DNA of 64,000 bases, from assembly GCA_910574895.1 (NCBI GenBank), contig CAJTDQ010000007.1, forward strand, positions 1 to 64,000, in the 5' to 3' direction. Shown piece by piece: positions 18,768 through 55,740 of this stretch (the stretch's first letter is position 1; every line of letters starts with the position of its first letter). Origin of the DNA: Eubacteriaceae bacterium (GTDB lineage Bacteria; Bacillota; Clostridia; Lachnospirales; Lachnospiraceae). A model generated the notes under the pieces. It had not been told where the DNA came from, ran no database searches, and saw only the letters and a program-made list of their open reading frames with translations. The position numbers were made by a program, and so were the translations under genes.

Positions 18768-19544
18768 TTACAATATTTCGTAAAATTCTTCCAGTGTCAG
18801 ACTATTATCCCACATAAACTTTGCTGCTTGTTTCCCAACATACCGAAAATGCCATGACTCATATTTAATCAATGTAATATTTTCTTTCTTTTTCGGATAT
18901 CTTAAAACAAATCCATACTTATGTGCATTTCTCCTGAGCCATTTATTTCCGGCAAGTTTCGCCTGCGCCCAGTTCTCCATGGTTAAATTATCTGAACATA
19001 AAATATCCAACGCCAATCCCGTTTCATGTTCGCTATGCCCTGGTAACTGCTGGTATTTGTAAGTTTGTTTTTTTGCCTTTAACTCATCCATGCCTTGTGC
19101 CATCAGATCAGATATATTTTTTTGTACCAGATATTCCTGTTTTTCCCTGCTTCTATATGCAGATGCAATAAAATATAAATGCCCATTTCTGTCTGCTGCA
19201 GTAAGCATTTCTCTTAAGTCTTTTACAATTCTTTCATCCGCCTCCAGACGCCCTTCACATATAGCTGTTAATTGACGAATATATGTATCCGGCATTTCAT
19301 TTGTTCGATTTACCAAAAGTAATAAATCCTTATTATTTTTATAAATTCTATTTGCTTCATCCTGTAATACACTACTTTTTTGTCTTTTTTCTTCTTGATA
19401 AAGAAACTGAGTTTCTCTTTTGCTCTCAGGCATTTTTGTAGGCATTACCTGCCTTGCCCCAATAATAACTAATGCAATTGAGACAAGAAACATAATACCT
19501 ATAACTTTCACATTCCTTTTCAATACTCTTTTTCTCTTTTTCAT
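18768..19544 (-). CDS. D-alanyl-D-alanine carboxypeptidase, M15B (VanY/DacB-like)
   Basis: 258 residues. N-terminal membrane anchor at ~12-30 places the enzyme outside the membrane. The M15B peptidase domain follows: SAYRSREKQEYLV, then the zinc-binding motif HSEHETGLALDIL and WHFRYVG with the second zinc histidine. Such enzymes trim the terminal D-Ala from peptidoglycan precursors or act as L,D/D,D-carboxypeptidases; in van clusters this lowers glycopeptide targets. It is upstream of the VanRS-like pair on the same strand (115-bp gap containing the regulator's direct repeats), so it may belong to the same regulon. Confidence 0.88.
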   Translation of the reverse strand: MKKRKRVLKRNVKVIGIMFLVSIALVIIGARQVMPTKMPESKRETQFLYQEEKRQKSSVLQDEANRIYKNNKDLLLLVNRTNEMPDTYIRQLTAICEGRLEADERIVKDLREMLTAADRNGHLYFIASAYRSREKQEYLVQKNISDLMAQGMDELKAKKQTYKYQQLPGHSEHETGLALDILCSDNLTMENWAQAKLAGNKWLRRNAHKYGFVLRYPKKKENITLIKYESWHFRYVGKQAAKFMWDNSLTLEEFYEIL

Positions 19545-22588: not shown

Positions 22589-22604
22589 CTCAAATAATAG
22601 TAAA

Positions 22605-22910
22605 AATTCCGGTTTGTAGTGGTAGTGATATTTCACTGCTGGAAGCAAATATAAAGAGAATACAGGAACTTGAATTACTTGATTACATTTATAAAAGAAA
22701 ACATAGAATCAATATCAAGTTAAGATTTGATTTTCAAAATCAAATCTTAAGACTTACCTGAGAAAAAATCATCAAGATTTTTTCGAAGATGAAGTCGGTA
22801 CTTGAGATATTAATTCTATGTTTTCTTTTATAAATGTTCAAGTAATGAGGTGAATGTATTCTCTCTATATTTACTTCAGCAGGAAAGTCACTCCCCTATA
22901 ACCCGGAATT
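22605..22910. repeat. Large palindromic element, copy 1 (structured core)
   Basis: About 306 bp filling the gap between asnS and the regulator. Arms 22605-22719 and 22801-22910 are inverted near-copies (for example TTTATAAAAGAAAACATAGA with its complement). The core holds a perfect 14-bp hairpin (22721-22749), a GACTT/AAGTC stem (22751-22755, 22792-22796) and an AT hairpin inside it (22762-22784). The core resembles, in opposite orientation, that of the element at 25900-26158. Confidence 0.8.
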
Positions 22911-24295
22911 TATAATTCGCAATTGTTCACAGTTCTTGGAAATGGTATGACATCTCTGATATTTGCCATACCTGTAAGATACATAATCATTCTTTCAAAC
23001 CCTAATCCAAATCCTGCGTGCTTTGCCGTACCATACTTTCTCAAATCCAGATAAAATTCATAATCTTTCTCATTTAACCCCAGTTCTTTCATACGTTCCC
23101 GTAACACTTCGAGATTTTCTTCTCTCTGGCTTCCACCGATAATTTCTCCAATTCCCGGCACTAAGCAATCCATAGCCGCCACTGTCTTTCCATCTTCATT
23201 CAGTTTCATATAAAACGCCTTAATTTCCTTTGGATAATCTGTAACAAAAACCGGACGCTTAAAAATCTCTTCTGTTAAATACCTTTCATGCTCTGTCTGC
23301 AAATCTGCTCCCCAACTCACTTTATATTCAAACTTATCATTATGTTTTTCTAATATTTCAATTGCTTCTGTGTATGTTACACGCCCAAACTCAGAATTCA
23401 TTACATGATTTAATCTTTCAAGCAGCCCTTTATCCACAAAGGAATTAAAGAAATTCATTTCTTCCGGTGCCTGTTCCAAAACATATTGAATAATATACTT
23501 AATCATTGCTTCTGCGAGTTCCATATCATCCATCAAATCCGCAAATGCAATCTCCGGTTCAATCATCCAGAATTCCGCTGCATGTCTTGTAGTATTAGAT
23601 TTTTCCGCTCTAAATGTAGGACCAAAAGTATATATTTTTTTAAACGCCATGGCATATGTTTCCCCATTTAACTGCCCGGATACCGTAAGATTCGTTGGTT
23701 TACTGAAAAAATCCTGCCCAAAATCAACATCCCCCTCTGCTGTCTTTGGTATTTCACTAAGGTCCATGGTGGTTACCTGAAACATCTCTCCTGCTCCTTC
23801 GCAATCACTTCCCGTAATCAATGGCGTGTGCACATACACAAATCCCTGCTCCTGAAAAAATTTGTGAATCGCATAAGCACACAACGAACGCACCCGAAAC
23901 ACTGCCTGAAAGGTATTTGTTCTTGGTCTTAAATGAGAAATAGTTCTCAGATATTCAAAAGAATGACGTTTTTTCTGCAATGGATAATCCGGTGTGCTTT
24001 CTCCCTCTATCTCCACTTTCAAAGCCTGTATTTCAAAAGGCTGTTTTGCATTCGGTGTGGCAACCAGAGTTCCAGTAACAATCAATGACGCTCCAATATT
24101 CATCTTTGAAATTTGCGTAAAATTTTCCATTTCATTATTATAAACAATCTGTATCGGTTGAAAATAGGTTCCGTCATTTAAAACAATAAATCCAAAAGTC
24201 TTTGAATCTCTGATACTGCGAATCCAACCACCAACACTTACTTCCTTATTTAAATACTTTTCTGTATTCTGAAACAACTCTCTAATCTCAATCAT
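22910..24295 (-). CDS. asnS: Asparaginyl-tRNA synthetase
   Basis: 461 residues, class IIb synthetase charging tRNA-Asn. OB-fold anticodon-binding domain at ~1-105 ([24 protein letters not shown]), then the catalytic core with motif 1 near [25 protein letters not shown], motif 2 [21 protein letters not shown] and motif 3 [15 protein letters not shown]. The asparagine type is supported by family length and the RHAAEFWM form. No T-box leader is recognised in the 170 bp upstream. It ends directly on the arm of the large palindrome, and no terminator other than that element is visible. Confidence 0.97.
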
Positions 24296-24513
24296 ATAAT
24301 ACTATTCCTTTCTTTTTTCTGTATATTATTTATAACCAAATATCTTTATTTATCACATTTCAATCATACCCGATTTTGATTTTTAAGTAAACACATCCTT
24401 TATTTCATTTTATAAACCTTTATACTTAATTTTATTTTGATGTTTCTTTTCTTTATTAGATATTGTATAATTCATACATAATTATTCTTAACGATAACAT
24501 GGAGGTAACTATT

Positions 24514-25869
24514 ATGGAAAAGAGAGGTAACTTCTCAAACAAAATAGGGTTTGTACTGGCTGCCGCCGGTTCTGCCGTTGGTTTAGGAAACATTTGGAGA
24601 TTTCCTTATCTGGCTGCCCAATATGGAGGGGGAACATTTTTATTCATTTATTTAATTTTAGCTGTCACATTCGGTTTTTCACTGATGATTGCTGAAATTG
24701 CAATTGGTAGAAAAACAGGATTAAGTGCCATCGGAGCATTTAAAGTATTAGACAAACGCTTTAGTTTTGTAGGCGTATTAGCAGCTGTTATTCCTATCAT
24801 TATTTTCCCATATTATTCAGTAATCGGCGGATGGGTTATTAAGTATTTTGTAGCATTTATCAGCGGTAATGCCGCTGCTTCTGCAGGTGACAGCTATTTC
24901 AACACGTTCATCTCCGGAACTTACGAACCTTTAGGCTGGTTTTTCCTGTTTATGGCATTAACTACTCTTGTCGTATGGTTTGGTGTTGAAAAAGGTATTG
25001 AAAAAGTCAGTAAATTCATGATGCCTGTCCTAGTTGTACTGACACTGTTTATTGCCATCTATGGTCTCACGGTAGACGGTGCTATGAAAGGTCTCATTTA
25101 TTATCTGAAGCCACATATGGCTGATGTTTCTGTAAAAACCATTCTGGCTGCCTTAGGACAGCTGTTTTATTCCATGTCTTTGGCCATGGGCATTATGATT
25201 ACGTATGGTTCTTATATGAAAAAAAGTGATAATTTGGAAAGTTCTGTAAGACAGATTGAAATTTTCGATACTGCTATAGCTTTCCTTGCAGGATTAATGA
25301 TTATACCAGCAGTATTTGCTTTTTCCGGTGGAGACCAGTCAGCACTCTCTCAAGGTCCGGGATTAATGTTTGTAACATTACCAAAAGTTTTCAACAGCAT
25401 GAAAATAGGCAGTGTTGTAGGAACTGTATTCTTTATTTTAGTATTTTTTGCAGCTTTAACTTCTGCAATATCTCTAATGGAAACTATTGTTTCTATCTTC
25501 CGTGATAAATTCAAATGGAGCAGGCATGTCGCATGTGGCGTTGTTTTTGCCTTTTCACTGCTTCTTGGAATACCATCCTGCTTAGGTTTTGGACCACTTT
25601 CATTTATTTCATGGATGGACAAGTCCATTCTCGATATTATGGACTTTATCAGTAACAGTGTATTAATGCCGATATGTGCATTGTTAACATGTATCTTTGT
25701 CGGATTTATTATTAAACCACAGACCATTATTGACGAAGCAACACATGGTGGTGCTAAATTTAAATCTAAAAATATGTTTGTAGTTATGATTAAATATATT
25801 GCTCCTATATTCTTAATTTTAATCTTAGTAAGTTCCATCGCAAACGCTTTAGGAATTATTAAATTATAA
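24514..25869 (+). CDS. Neurotransmitter:sodium symporter (SNF) family transporter
   Basis: 451 residues, one of few plus-strand genes here. Start set at MEKRGNFSNKIGF, with GGAGG 8 nt before the ATG; an upstream frame from 24463 adds 17 residues without a ribosome-binding site. Contains the family motif GSAVGLGNIWRFPYL (Na+ and substrate site in helix 1) and about 11 membrane helices, typical of bacterial homologues such as TnaT and MhsT. It imports an amino acid with Na+; substrate not deducible. It is convergent with the AGCS gene, with the second large palindrome between them. Confidence 0.92.
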   Translation: MEKRGNFSNKIGFVLAAAGSAVGLGNIWRFPYLAAQYGGGTFLFIYLILAVTFGFSLMIAEIAIGRKTGLSAIGAFKVLDKRFSFVGVLAAVIPIIIFPYYSVIGGWVIKYFVAFISGNAAASAGDSYFNTFISGTYEPLGWFFLFMALTTLVVWFGVEKGIEKVSKFMMPVLVVLTLFIAIYGLTVDGAMKGLIYYLKPHMADVSVKTILAALGQLFYSMSLAMGIMITYGSYMKKSDNLESSVRQIEIFDTAIAFLAGLMIIPAVFAFSGGDQSALSQGPGLMFVTLPKVFNSMKIGSVVGTVFFILVFFAALTSAISLMETIVSIFRDKFKWSRHVACGVVFAFSLLLGIPSCLGFGPLSFISWMDKSILDIMDFISNSVLMPICALLTCIFVGFIIKPQTIIDEATHGGAKFKSKNMFVVMIKYIAPIFLILILVSSIANALGIIKL

Positions 25870-25899
25870 AAAGCAAAATGTTCTATTGTATTGTTTAGA

Positions 25900-26158
25900 A
25901 CTTATACAGAGCAGAAAATACACGATACAATTTGAAAACTTCATAATTTAAATATTTGTGTTGACAAAAAGAAGTAACAAATACAAAAGCACCGGATACA
26001 ACTTCGGAGAAAATTTATATTTTCTCCTCCGTGAATCCTTAAAATTTGATTCGGAAATCAAATTTTAGCTTTTATTTGTTACTTCTTTTTATCTACAAAT
26101 AAATTAAATTATTCAATGTTTTCAAATTGTATCGTGTATTCTCTGCCCTATATAACTT
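25900..26158. repeat. Large palindromic element, copy 2 (structured core)
   Basis: About 259 bp between two convergent genes (stops at 25869 and 26187). Arms 25900-25990 and 26069-26158 share long matches such as AATACACGATACAATTTGAA and AAAGAAGTAACAAATA with their complements. On the minus strand the core has the AAAATTTGATT hairpin, a GGAT/ATCC stem (26035-26038, 25994-25997) and an inner GGAGAAAAT/ATTTTCTCC hairpin, the same order as copy 1. Confidence 0.8.
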
Positions 26159-26186
26159 TAAAAATTAATAATAAAACATCTCATGC

Positions 26187-27602
26187 TTATTTTTTGTTAA
26201 GTCGGTTTGCCTTTTTCTCCTTCTCCAAGATTGGCTGAAATCGTTCTACTTCTTTTGCTATCACTTTGCTCATCGCCAAAAGACAGATGAGATTGGGGAT
26301 TGCCATCAGTGCATTTGCAATATCTGAAAAGTTCCATACAATCTGCAATGTTGTTGTTGCCCCCACAAATACAATGAGCGAGAAGAATATTCTATAAATC
26401 ATGTTGTATTTATATGTACCAAATATGTATTCAAAAGCTTTTTCACCATGATACTCCCATCCTAAAATTGTAGAAAATGCAAACAATGTTATACCTATCG
26501 TTACTAAACCAGCTCCTACATCTCCTAATGCCGACTGAAAGGCAAGAATCGTCAATGCCGCTCCCTGTATTAGTTTTCCGTCTGCTCCTACCGTTCCTAG
26601 TACGCCGGAAGATGCAATACAAAGACCTGTAACTGTACATACTACAATCGTATCCCAGAATGTACCTGTCATATTAATATATCCCTGACGAACCGGGTCG
26701 TCTGTAGTGGCTGCCGCCGCTGTAATAGCAGCTGACCCCATCCCTGCTTCATTAGAAAAAACACCACGTGCAACGCCAAACCTTATGGCATTCATAACAC
26801 TGATTGTCATTGTCCCCGTCACACCACCTGCAACAGATTCCGGTGCAAATGCCATTTTAAAAATCATAACAATACCGGATGGAAGATTATGTATATTGAC
26901 AAATATTACACTGACTCCTGCAAAAACATAGAAAATTGCCATAATGGGAACTACGACAGATGATACCTTGGAAATAGACTGAATACCTCCCACAATTATT
27001 ATGAATACTAGTATTGTCAATACTAACCCTACAATTTTTTCATTGAAATAAAATGTACTTTTCAACGATTCTACAATAGAATTTGACTGTGTCATATTTC
27101 CAATTCCAAAGGATGCCATGACCGCAGACACTGCAAAGAACATTCCAAGTACTGCTCCTGCCTTTTTGTTTTTAAACCCTCTTTTCATGGTGTACATCGG
27201 TCCACCGGCCATTTCACCCTTTTCATTTACTTCCCTATATTTGATAGCAAGCATGCATTCACTAAACTTAGAAGACATACCAAAACACGCTGACAACCAC
27301 ATCCACACCAACGCTCCGGGCCCGCCTGCTGCCATAGCTGTGGCAACACCTACAATATTACCTGTTCCGATTGTTGCGGCAAGCGCTGTTGTCAATGCAG
27401 AAAAAGGTGAAACATCACCATGGCCTCTTTTGGTGCTTCTTGCTTCTTTACTCAACGTACTCTTTAATGCATAGCCTAAATTTCTCCAAGGTCTGAATTT
27501 TAACCTAAATGTCAAAAACACACCGGTTCCAACCAGAAGCACCAACATTACAGGTCCCCAGACAAAATCATCAACAGCCGAAATAATTTCTGAAAAACTC
27601 AT
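26187..27602 (-). CDS. Alanine/glycine:cation symporter (AGCS) family protein
   Basis: 471 residues, about 11 membrane helices. Family markers are TTALAATIGTGNIVGVATA, MGSAAITAAAATTDDPVRQG and GWEYHGEKAFEYIFG. AGCS carriers import alanine or glycine with Na+ or H+. Paralogous to the symporter at 52784-54190, but its leader has no glycine riboswitch. ATG at 27602 follows a weak AAAGGGAAA site. It sits just downstream of the ABC permease gene (61 bp), so co-transcription is possible. Confidence 0.93.
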   Translation of the reverse strand: MSFSEIISAVDDFVWGPVMLVLLVGTGVFLTFRLKFRPWRNLGYALKSTLSKEARSTKRGHGDVSPFSALTTALAATIGTGNIVGVATAMAAGGPGALVWMWLSACFGMSSKFSECMLAIKYREVNEKGEMAGGPMYTMKRGFKNKKAGAVLGMFFAVSAVMASFGIGNMTQSNSIVESLKSTFYFNEKIVGLVLTILVFIIIVGGIQSISKVSSVVVPIMAIFYVFAGVSVIFVNIHNLPSGIVMIFKMAFAPESVAGGVTGTMTISVMNAIRFGVARGVFSNEAGMGSAAITAAAATTDDPVRQGYINMTGTFWDTIVVCTVTGLCIASSGVLGTVGADGKLIQGAALTILAFQSALGDVGAGLVTIGITLFAFSTILGWEYHGEKAFEYIFGTYKYNMIYRIFFSLIVFVGATTTLQIVWNFSDIANALMAIPNLICLLAMSKVIAKEVERFQPILEKEKKANRLNKK

Positions 27603-52783: not shown

Positions 52784-54190
52784 CTATTGTCTTTTAAAAT
52801 ACGCTCTGGTATCTTTTACAATTACTCCACTCAATGCAAACAGTGCAATAATATTTGGTATCGCCATCAATCCATTAAAGATATCAGCGATAGTCCATAC
52901 TGCTGCTACTGTCATATACGGTCCGATGAATACTGCCAGAATATACAACCATCTGTAAATCTTTACTGCAGTTGTACTTCCATTCGATAAATACTCCAAG
53001 CATCTTTCTCCATAATAATCCCAGCCAAGAATCGTTGTAAATGCAAAGAACACTAAACAAACCATCAATATCAACGATGCCACGCTAGAAGGCAGGAAAT
53101 ATAATCCTTTCTGGAAAGCTGCTGTAGTTACCTGAACTCCCTCAAGACTCTTATCTGCCCATGTTCCCATCATTACAATCGAAAGGCCTGTCATTGTACA
53201 TACAATAATTGTATCAATAAATGTTCCTGTCATTGTAACAAGTCCCTGACGTACCGGCTCTTTTGTCTGTGCGGCAGCAGCAGCAATCGGTGCGGAACCA
53301 AGACCTGCCTCATTAGAGAAAATTCCACGTGCCACACCTTTCTGCATTGCAATGGCAATAGAAGCAAAAGCACCTCCCGCAATTGGCTTTACTCCAAAAG
53401 CCCCTTTGAATATCTCACCAAAAGCTGCCGGAACTTTATCAACATTTACAAAAATCAATACTAACGCTGCTACAATATATAAAACTGCCATAAATGGAAC
53501 TACTACTTCTGAAACACCGGCAATTCTTTTGATGCCGCCGATTACCACCAGCCCAACGCACAATGTCAAAACAATAGCCGTAACAACAATAGAAATAGAA
53601 TAGTCTGCACCAAATATATTTACTGTATGAGTTTTATTCGGATCAAAGAAAGACTGTACTGCAGAAGCAATACCATTTACCTGAGTAAACGTTCCAATTC
53701 CAAATAAACCGACGCACGCTCCAAAAAACGCAAAGACTTTTGCCAGCCATTTCCATTTATGCCCCATGCCATTCTCTATATAATAAAACGGGCCACCCAG
53801 AACATGTCCGTCCGCACCAATTTTCCTATATTTCACCGCAAGAAAACCTTCCGCATACTTTGTTGCCATTCCAAGAAACGCAGCAACCCACATCCAGAAT
53901 AACGCTCCCGGACCACCTGCCAGGACGCCAATCGCTGTAGCCACACCAACGATATTTCCTGTTCCAATCGTTGCAGAAAGAGCTGTACATAACGCTCCAA
54001 AACTAGTTACTTCTCCTTCTCCCTCTTCTTCATTTTTAAACATATATTTCAACGCTTTTGGTAAATGAAAAACCTGCAGTAATCTTAAACGAAAAGTAAG
54101 GTAGATTCCTGCTGCTAATATAAGTACAATCAAAGGTACTCCCCACACCAAAGCATCTACCTGTTCTAAAAATTGAGTAAATTGTTTCAT
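52784..54190 (-). CDS. Glycine/alanine:sodium symporter (AGCS family) under a glycine riboswitch
   Basis: 468 residues from MKQFTQFLEQVDALVWG; AGGAGG lies 6 nt before ATG 54190. The longer open frame to 54352 is rejected because its extra residues (MCLLRRRRCTHIR...) translate the riboswitch. About 11 helices; AGCS motifs TALSATIGTGNIVGVATA, EAGLGSAPIAAAAAQTKEPVRQG and GWDYYGERCLEYLSNG. The riboswitch indicates that glycine is a substrate. It lies between rplL and the secreted-protein operon, breaking the usual rplL-rpoB order. Paralogous to 26187-27602. Confidence 0.95.
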   Translation of the reverse strand: MKQFTQFLEQVDALVWGVPLIVLILAAGIYLTFRLRLLQVFHLPKALKYMFKNEEEGEGEVTSFGALCTALSATIGTGNIVGVATAIGVLAGGPGALFWMWVAAFLGMATKYAEGFLAVKYRKIGADGHVLGGPFYYIENGMGHKWKWLAKVFAFFGACVGLFGIGTFTQVNGIASAVQSFFDPNKTHTVNIFGADYSISIVVTAIVLTLCVGLVVIGGIKRIAGVSEVVVPFMAVLYIVAALVLIFVNVDKVPAAFGEIFKGAFGVKPIAGGAFASIAIAMQKGVARGIFSNEAGLGSAPIAAAAAQTKEPVRQGLVTMTGTFIDTIIVCTMTGLSIVMMGTWADKSLEGVQVTTAAFQKGLYFLPSSVASLILMVCLVFFAFTTILGWDYYGERCLEYLSNGSTTAVKIYRWLYILAVFIGPYMTVAAVWTIADIFNGLMAIPNIIALFALSGVIVKDTRAYFKRQ

Positions 54191-54197
54191 TTTATCC

Positions 54198-54385
54198 TCC
54201 TGTCCTTTTGCCTGAGAGATTAACATACCATAAATCCAAGACTCGCTCGTGAGTCTTGGCGCGGGATTCGGGTCAGCTTTAGCTGACACAATACATCTCC
54301 GAATCCCTGCGCATCTGATATGCGTACACCTTCGGCGCCTGAGTAAACACAAAGTGCCATCAGACCTCTCCAGTAATTTTTACCT
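54198..54385 (-). promoter_or_regulatory. Glycine riboswitch (single aptamer)
   Basis: Minus strand shows the conserved sequence blocks in order: CTGGAGAGGTCTGATGGCAC, CAGGCGCCGAAGGTGTACGC, an extended P3 arm (CAGGGATTCGG.../...CCGAATCCC with an AAGACTC/GAGTCTT hairpin), then AATCTCTCAGGCAAAAGGAC. The ribosome-binding site AGGAGG follows the last block by only a few bases, so ligand could control translation initiation as well as transcription. A second tandem aptamer is not seen. Confidence 0.93.
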
Positions 54386-55539: not shown

Positions 55540-55740
55540 TTATTTTTTTATAGGTCATAACCTTCATTTCGCCGAATTTATACAATAATAAAGCCTTTCC
55601 ATCCAAAGACAGAAAGGCATAAAGTTTCTTTGTATAAAACTTAATTCCTCGGTAGGCGACGATTATCGAACTTACTTTGCATTCGCAAAACCTACTGTCT
55701 TCGGCAATTGGTTTTAAACCACTTGTGCATATTAGCACAA
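55540..55740 (-). promoter_or_regulatory. L10 leader (rplJ autoregulatory RNA)
   Basis: Minus strand: TTGCCGAAGACAGTAGGTTTT and CGCCTACCGAGG around a central stem-loop, then GCCTTTCTGTCTTTGGATGG.AAGGC. These match the known L10 leader architecture upstream of rplJ in Firmicutes. Confidence 0.85.

Follow-up and report, generated by a model that had tools for sequence, protein, structure and literature searches.

Extragenic palindromes of the REP/BIME type are described, in the sections of PMC3733652, PMC1525189 and PMC3116915 that concern them, as multicopy sequences that lie downstream of coding regions, mostly between convergent or unidirectional genes, and that often occur as inverted doublets. 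The corresponding section of PMC3733652 gives REPs a length of 20-40 bp and GTAG or CGTC tags, and describes GT pairing as frequent in their stems. MITEs and similar elements (Correia/NEMIS, RUP, RPE) are portrayed in the relevant part of PMC2229807 as short, non-coding, intergenic sequences with inverted ends whose insertions are polymorphic. In the portions of the literature on such elements that our search covered, we found no description of the palindrome family reported here. The inverted terminal repeats of parvoviruses (AAV) consist of a long stem closed by two side arms. The attC sites of integrons are recombination sites that are read as a folded single strand, and in them structure is kept while sequence varies.

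We analyzed a stretch of 64,000 nucleotides from a member of the Lachnospiraceae (the window). A sequence-only reading of the window had pointed to a palindrome at 25900-26158 that lies between two stop codons, and we found that both statements hold. Inverted repeats and the predicted fold give the palindrome a slightly wider extent, 25878-26179. This element (T2, Table 1), a near-palindrome of 302 bp, is flanked by the convergently arranged ends of a transporter gene (25869) and of the agcS gene on the opposite strand (26187). Its outer arms, 25878-25939 and 26118-26179, are 62 nt long and 81% complementary, and there are inner arms in addition. The region 25850-26200 folded as RNA with -113.5 kcal/mol, compared with -46.3 (sd 4.8) for shuffled sequences, none of which did as well in 100 trials (z -14); folded as DNA, T2 gave a z of -15. 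We consider T2 to be, with fair probability, a non-autonomous, REP/MITE-like palindromic insertion element of one bacterial family that is recognized by its structure by a protein acting in trans. Elsewhere in the window, 54190-54383 and 55578-55722 are a glycine riboswitch and an L10 leader, both ordinary.

Table 1. Features at and around the two palindromic elements of the window (strand of an element is that of its tip).
Feature	Position	Strand	Basis or remark
T1, same element type as T2, different arms, ends AATTCCGG	22605..22910	+	overlaps asnS stop codon by one base
T1 tip	22708..22813	+	model match
asnS, asparagine-tRNA ligase	22910..24295	-	stop codon adjoins T1
SNF-family sodium-dependent transporter gene	24463..25869	+	ends 8 nt before T2
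Foot of T2	25871..26195	.	AAGCA 25871-25875 pairs with TGCTT 26184-26188 (fold, sequence, by eye)
T2, whole palindromic element	25878..26179	- (tip on minus strand)	inverted repeats, folds, family matches
Tip of T2, a three-way junction bearing side arms X and Y	25977..26080	-	model matches, alignments A1 and A4
T2 tip stem P2 (25994-25997 with 26035-26038), internal loop below arm Y	25994..26038	-	alignment of 24 tips
T2 tip side arm Y	26006..26027	-	folds, covarying helices 4 and 5
Side arm X of the T2 tip, a perfect inverted repeat of 12 bp with a 4-nt loop	26040..26067	-	inverted-repeat scan, covarying helix 2
agcS-type sodium:alanine symporter gene	26187..27602	-	ends 7 nt after T2

The same reading had described T2 as the second copy, in opposite orientation, of a palindrome (T1) with unrelated arms and a similar core. 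The orientation was confirmed by the matches of a tip model at 22708-22813 on the plus strand and 25977-26080 on the minus strand; both tips belong to the training set of the model, so that these matches only place them. The cores are indeed alike on opposite strands, with a local alignment score of 51. Similar AT-rich composition of two hairpins had been named as the explanation that could undo this likeness. When we ran that comparison with 5000 random hairpins matched in composition and structure, none reached the observed score (mean 17.6, maximum 34), and chance likeness was rejected. As for the arms, the 5' arm of T1 scored 105 against its own partner but 26 and 19 against the arms of T2, where shuffled sequences gave a mean of 17.1 and a maximum of 35; the arms of the two copies are therefore unrelated, in agreement with that reading. 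The T1 region itself, 22590-22910, folded with a z of -18. The 8-mer CGGTRCTT, proposed as a marker of the family, did not serve: it has five matches in the window where 1.26 are expected (1 of 100 shuffles reaches five), and only two of the five lie inside elements.

BLAST searches with each copy returned many further copies in the genome from which the window was taken. With a covariance model built from 24 distinct tips we obtained 33 matches here, and 29 of these scored above 90 bits. In merged stretches we found a composite of 1123 bp that consists of a T2-type hairpin, a middle of about 525 bp and a T1-type hairpin. It is present with 97% identity at two sites, where the flanks diverge exactly at the element ends, and with 91% identity at a third site, which also has different flanks and carries a T1-type core in the T2 position. 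The composite looks non-coding because its longest frame has 100 codons. It had no match in plasmid and phage collections. The terminal repeat AATTYCGGTTTGTNGRGG had 15 exact matches in the genome and 65 with up to three mismatches, compared with 19 for the reversed control. AATTYCGG ends were found on most copies of this genome including T1, T2 being without them, and the elements of other genomes carry different ends. No clear target-site duplication was seen at the element ends; the AATT ends are self-complementary, so that a duplication and a terminal repeat look the same there. We noticed no transposon sharing the element ends in this genome, in draft assemblies that break at repeats.

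Further repeats were seen inside some copies. The middle of the composite (L018 1971-2264) contains a different intergenic repeat, whose units span about 75 bp and are based on TTACATATA ... TATATGTAA, and this repeat also occurs in two relatives (G002 L056, L061, L065; G022 L047, L057, L062, L066). Two copies, C2:286105-286257 and C4:166723-166804, carry an extra insertion of about 140 bp in the loop of tip arm Y, and the insertion holds a palindrome of its own.

We then surveyed other genomes. The model of 24 tips matched 12 of 23 genomes of the genus and 12 of 299 genomes of the family, the own genome being included in both counts, and a second model of 65 tips matched 32 of 397 family genomes in 26 of 334 genera; the training loci of both models (R1 and R2) came from genomes that the models later found again. 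Twenty of the 32 genomes were absent among the matches of the 299-genome survey, some of them lying outside that sample. Because few candidates were scored per genome in the two family-wide surveys, their copy counts are lower bounds. A deeper scan of six genomes, with at most 150 candidates scored in each, gave 28, 23, 15, 12, 5 and 2 tip matches. In a class-wide sample of 391 genomes, family members among them, the second model matched the own genome alone. A pattern scan returned 70 stretches in public genomes and two in viral contigs, and three of these 72 carry the tip. Each element is a long inverted repeat that ends in the conserved tip. Elements are mostly about 230-465 bp long, and by eye a total length near 290 nt clusters in several genomes.

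The tip covaries. In a structure-blind alignment of 24 tips (A1), double-sided change was found at 18 of 31 pairs, and stem P2 (columns 46-49 with 94-97) shows it at two of its four pairs in 9 of the 24 sequences. We repeated the count on a model-based alignment of 64 different tips, which come from 11 genera (alignments A2-A4 are fitted to the model): pairing was seen in 95.8% of cells, compared with 62.5% for shuffles and no more than 49% for slid alignments, and 630 cells changed on both sides, compared with 162 in shuffles; none of 500 shuffles did as well. Double-sided change occurred somewhere in all 31 pairs, as it did in 3 of the 500 shuffles. Unpaired letters of the tip are kept as well (by eye), and a CCGTTTG ... 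CTAA motif was seen by eye between the varying helices of arms in one genome (G274). These data show that the tip is conserved by compensatory change.

Next to genes, the elements have an orientation bias. Of 72 single hairpins, 34 had a stop codon no more than 20 nt away on the 5'-sense side, compared with 12 of 67 for the other side (Fisher p 0.0003), with orthologous duplicates (L158, L176, L217, L218, L219) dropped, the own genome excluded, and ORFs called simply as the longest non-overlapping frames from ATG. Between convergent genes, the nearer stop codon was 5'-sense in 26 of 34 cases and 3'-sense in 5. Over all loci, 44 were convergent, 27 tandem and 6 divergent, and 13 lacked a gene on one side. 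G145 is a complete genome; there, 16 of 19 loci lay between convergent genes, whereas over 200 kb this arrangement was seen in 28 of 168 gene pairs (p 4e-9). Close pairs of elements less than 500 bp apart (377-484 bp) were tip-divergent in all 19 cases of the six-genome scan (G145, G376, G106 and G292); of the further close pairs, L152, L153 and L206 were tip-divergent and L190 (G274) was tip-parallel.

Relatives differ in which sites are occupied. The T2 junction carries no element in G022 and G002; 95 and 138 bp separate the matched gene ends, and by eye a terminator-like hairpin is there instead. In G013 the arms are present at this site and 118 bp including the tip are gone, between 7-bp ACAAATA direct repeats. 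This is most simply a deletion, as expected for slippage over a hairpin, and less simply an insertion of the tip with a 7-bp duplication in the own genome. We checked seven further sites of the own genome in four relatives: three matched across the joined flanks (C1:133156 and C2:28086 in G022, C10:32517 in G002), and at a fourth, C2:94692, 133 and 126 bp lie between the flanks in G022 and G002. At the asnS 3' end, G019 carries a hairpin whose arms differ and which lacks the tip, G022 has only a stretch like an element end, and no element was found in G010, G004, G007, G002 or G013. The family is thus polymorphic for insertion, and its empty, shortened and altered sites show gain, shortening and rewriting of elements at preferred places. 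Some loci, such as the 3' ends of aroC and asnS, are kept in place across species, and a resident function fits these as well as mobility does.

Two observations concern individual loci. Where the own genome has a 303-bp element (C2:28086), G013 shows a smaller hairpin, roughly 78 bp long (L365; C3, about 19434-19512), whose termini, CCGGTTTATCG, resemble those of the element, and a mini version of the family may exist. At two loci of the genus (L217, L219, L221 and L218, L220) the arms seem to reach the coding ends of both convergent genes; the element there is near-identical between species and the flanking genes differ more. Recombination may have played a part.

A bidirectional transcription terminator or 3'-end boundary element, kept for ending or protecting the mRNAs of the preceding genes, would fit the placement behind stop codons, the convergent setting of the G145 loci and the terminator-like hairpins that G022 and G002 have in place of T2. 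A dual terminator had already been proposed for T2. In its favor, T2 has at its foot a short stem with a T-run behind it at 26190-26195 and a shorter T-run on the other strand (by eye), and in one clade (L119, L121, L157) arm Y consists of an A-tract, a stem and a T-tract; however, a terminator scan limited to loops of 3-8 found no ordinary terminator in T1 or T2, and by eye many elements outside the genus lack a T-tract after the stem. Termination needs far less than a stem of about 100 bp, the gene strand has no G.U excess (below), and termination does not need a conserved, oriented tip. The sequence-only reading had doubted that termination alone explains both copies. This doubt was sound, although it judged T1 by the regulator gene that T1 precedes: T1 adjoins the asnS stop codon, so that both copies fit the bias of the family, in which the hairpin lies behind a stop codon with its tip antisense to the gene. 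Taken together, we regard a terminator or boundary element as rather unlikely to be what the family is; termination may be a use at T2, and it leaves the conserved tip unexplained.

We also asked whether the arms pair as DNA or as RNA. Because a G.T read from one strand becomes an A.C when read from the opposite strand, a structure kept as RNA should give lopsided counts. In 88 non-redundant hairpins, with 14 near-duplicate loci dropped, the own genome excluded and only positions flanked by matches counted, there were 3587 Watson-Crick pairs, 94 G.T, 103 A.C, 164 other mismatches and 151 gaps; G.T and A.C on the gene-sense strand did not differ (p 0.57), and the arms are therefore not lopsided. 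A first, redundant count had given 55 G.T and 81 A.C. Seven tRNAs of the same loci had 14 G.U pairs, a weak control because the tool reports no A.C. The arms thus pair symmetrically as DNA, and pairing looks to be kept as DNA rather than as one RNA.

The arms also tend to change in step, though not perfectly. Arms often have nothing in common between copies, yet each nearly complements its own partner. Identity to the own partner arm and across copies was 0.85 and 0.54 in G274, 0.80 and 0.55 in G208, and 0.87 and 0.67 in G313, compared with 0.46 for shuffled sequences, arm extents being defined by self-match, which favors own-arm identity. Between the aroC 3' elements of two clades (L157 and L220), 16 pairs differed on both sides, one via G.U and six by mismatch. 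The corresponding numbers were 23, 9 and 31 for L176 and L181, 24, 6 and 21 for L220 and L221, and 8, 7 and 14 for the copies of G313. Two comparisons in G057 gave no both-side change, and some close copies differ chiefly by single changes. By eye, the T2 site of G013 and that of the own genome differ by a paired change near the arm end, and two paralogues of G019 are two paired changes apart. Template switching in replication can create and maintain such pairing, according to the part of PMC8794818 that deals with it. We dropped the idea that the arms are freshly copied target DNA: sizes cluster near 290 nt and the arms keep letters (by eye), and the arms were therefore taken as part of the element.

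A structured non-coding RNA class, acting in cis or in trans, with a three-way-junction core and transcribed from the gene strand or antisense to it, would also show strong covariation of helices, conserved loop letters in tip and arms (seen here by eye) and an orientation biased relative to the upstream gene. Set against this are the equal numbers of G.T and A.C mismatches in the arms, the differences between copies in the arms beyond the tip, and Rfam, which had no match on the elements of the window at the gathering score. We consider an RNA class improbable. Rfam searches of 10 loci at E 0.5 returned eukaryotic miRNA hairpins and CrcZ nearby, all below gathering, and a described RNA family was rejected. 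Least probable by our estimate is a decaying MITE of a conventional transposon with a merely inherited, non-functional likeness of tips, which has the inverted ends, the non-coding sequence and the empty sites in relatives on its side and against it the compensatory change throughout the tip across 11 genera, unexpected under decay, and the fact that no transposon with the same ends was noticed in the own genome.

If T2 is an insertion element recognized by its structure, a protein acting in trans would recognize the folded tip as DNA, in a hairpin or a cruciform, and would copy or move the element. Matching of the arms would be maintained by template switching across the hairpin or by selection on folding, either of which would keep rewriting one arm from the other. 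Insertions would survive mainly at the 3' ends of genes, and some may also stop or insulate transcription. We looked for the partner protein among the neighbors of the elements (123 of 136 ORFs, of 100-700 aa) and did not find it: among the 25 of 192 neighbor families listed, none occurred in more than 4 of the 123 proteins, and the commonest had ordinary host functions. Because 25 of 192 families are covered by this statement, a rare transposase could be hidden. Transposases of the Y1 type (PF01797) were found in 10 of 15 carriers and in 7 of 15 non-carriers and thus do not track the element. The carriers G002, G013 (65% complete), G019, G208 and G292 gave no PF01797 match, and a Y1 (IS200/RAYT) gene was rejected as a requirement because it was not found in these 5 of 15 carriers.

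A further possibility, which we put forward tentatively and with considerable doubt, is that the family represents a new class of structure-recognized hairpin mobile DNA, in which the tip, recognized as a three-way junction in single-stranded or cruciform DNA, is the address for the protein and every round of movement or replication through the hairpin regenerates matching arms. If this were true, arms would drift freely between copies and yet always pair, and each inverted pair would form one complete unit that ends in a T-shaped hairpin on both sides, as in parvovirus telomeres. Bacteria normally do not maintain long palindromes stably; in this family, as many as about 30 copies are kept in one genome, and their arms largely change in step. 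The family raises two testable questions, namely how palindromes stay matched, by selection or by template switching, and by what means extragenic palindromes move when they do not track a RAYT-type gene. Within a large bacterial family it can also serve to mark how gene ends are built.

Compared with the known systems, the family resembles REP/BIME/REPIN elements in its location at gene ends, its enrichment between convergent genes and the presence of inverted doublets. Unlike REPs, its elements are mostly 230-465 bp long, outside the 20-40 bp range, and have a two-armed tip; the arms show no G.T excess as REP stems do. By eye, no GTAG or CGTC tag was seen at the element ends listed. The family also differs from REPIN-RAYT systems in that a Y1 transposase gene was not found in 5 of 15 carriers. 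Like MITEs, the elements are non-coding and intergenic, with inverted ends and with empty sites in relatives; unlike MITEs, the whole unit is palindromic with a conserved folded core, the arms vary by copy, and no parent transposon was noticed among the neighbor families listed or in the own genome. The two-armed tip of the palindrome and the inverted hairpins at the ends of the 1123-bp composite recall parvovirus terminal repeats in shape only: these elements sit in a bacterial chromosome, and the likeness is one of architecture, not of descent. Finally, attC sites are much smaller than the elements described here, but conservation of structure over sequence is common to both.
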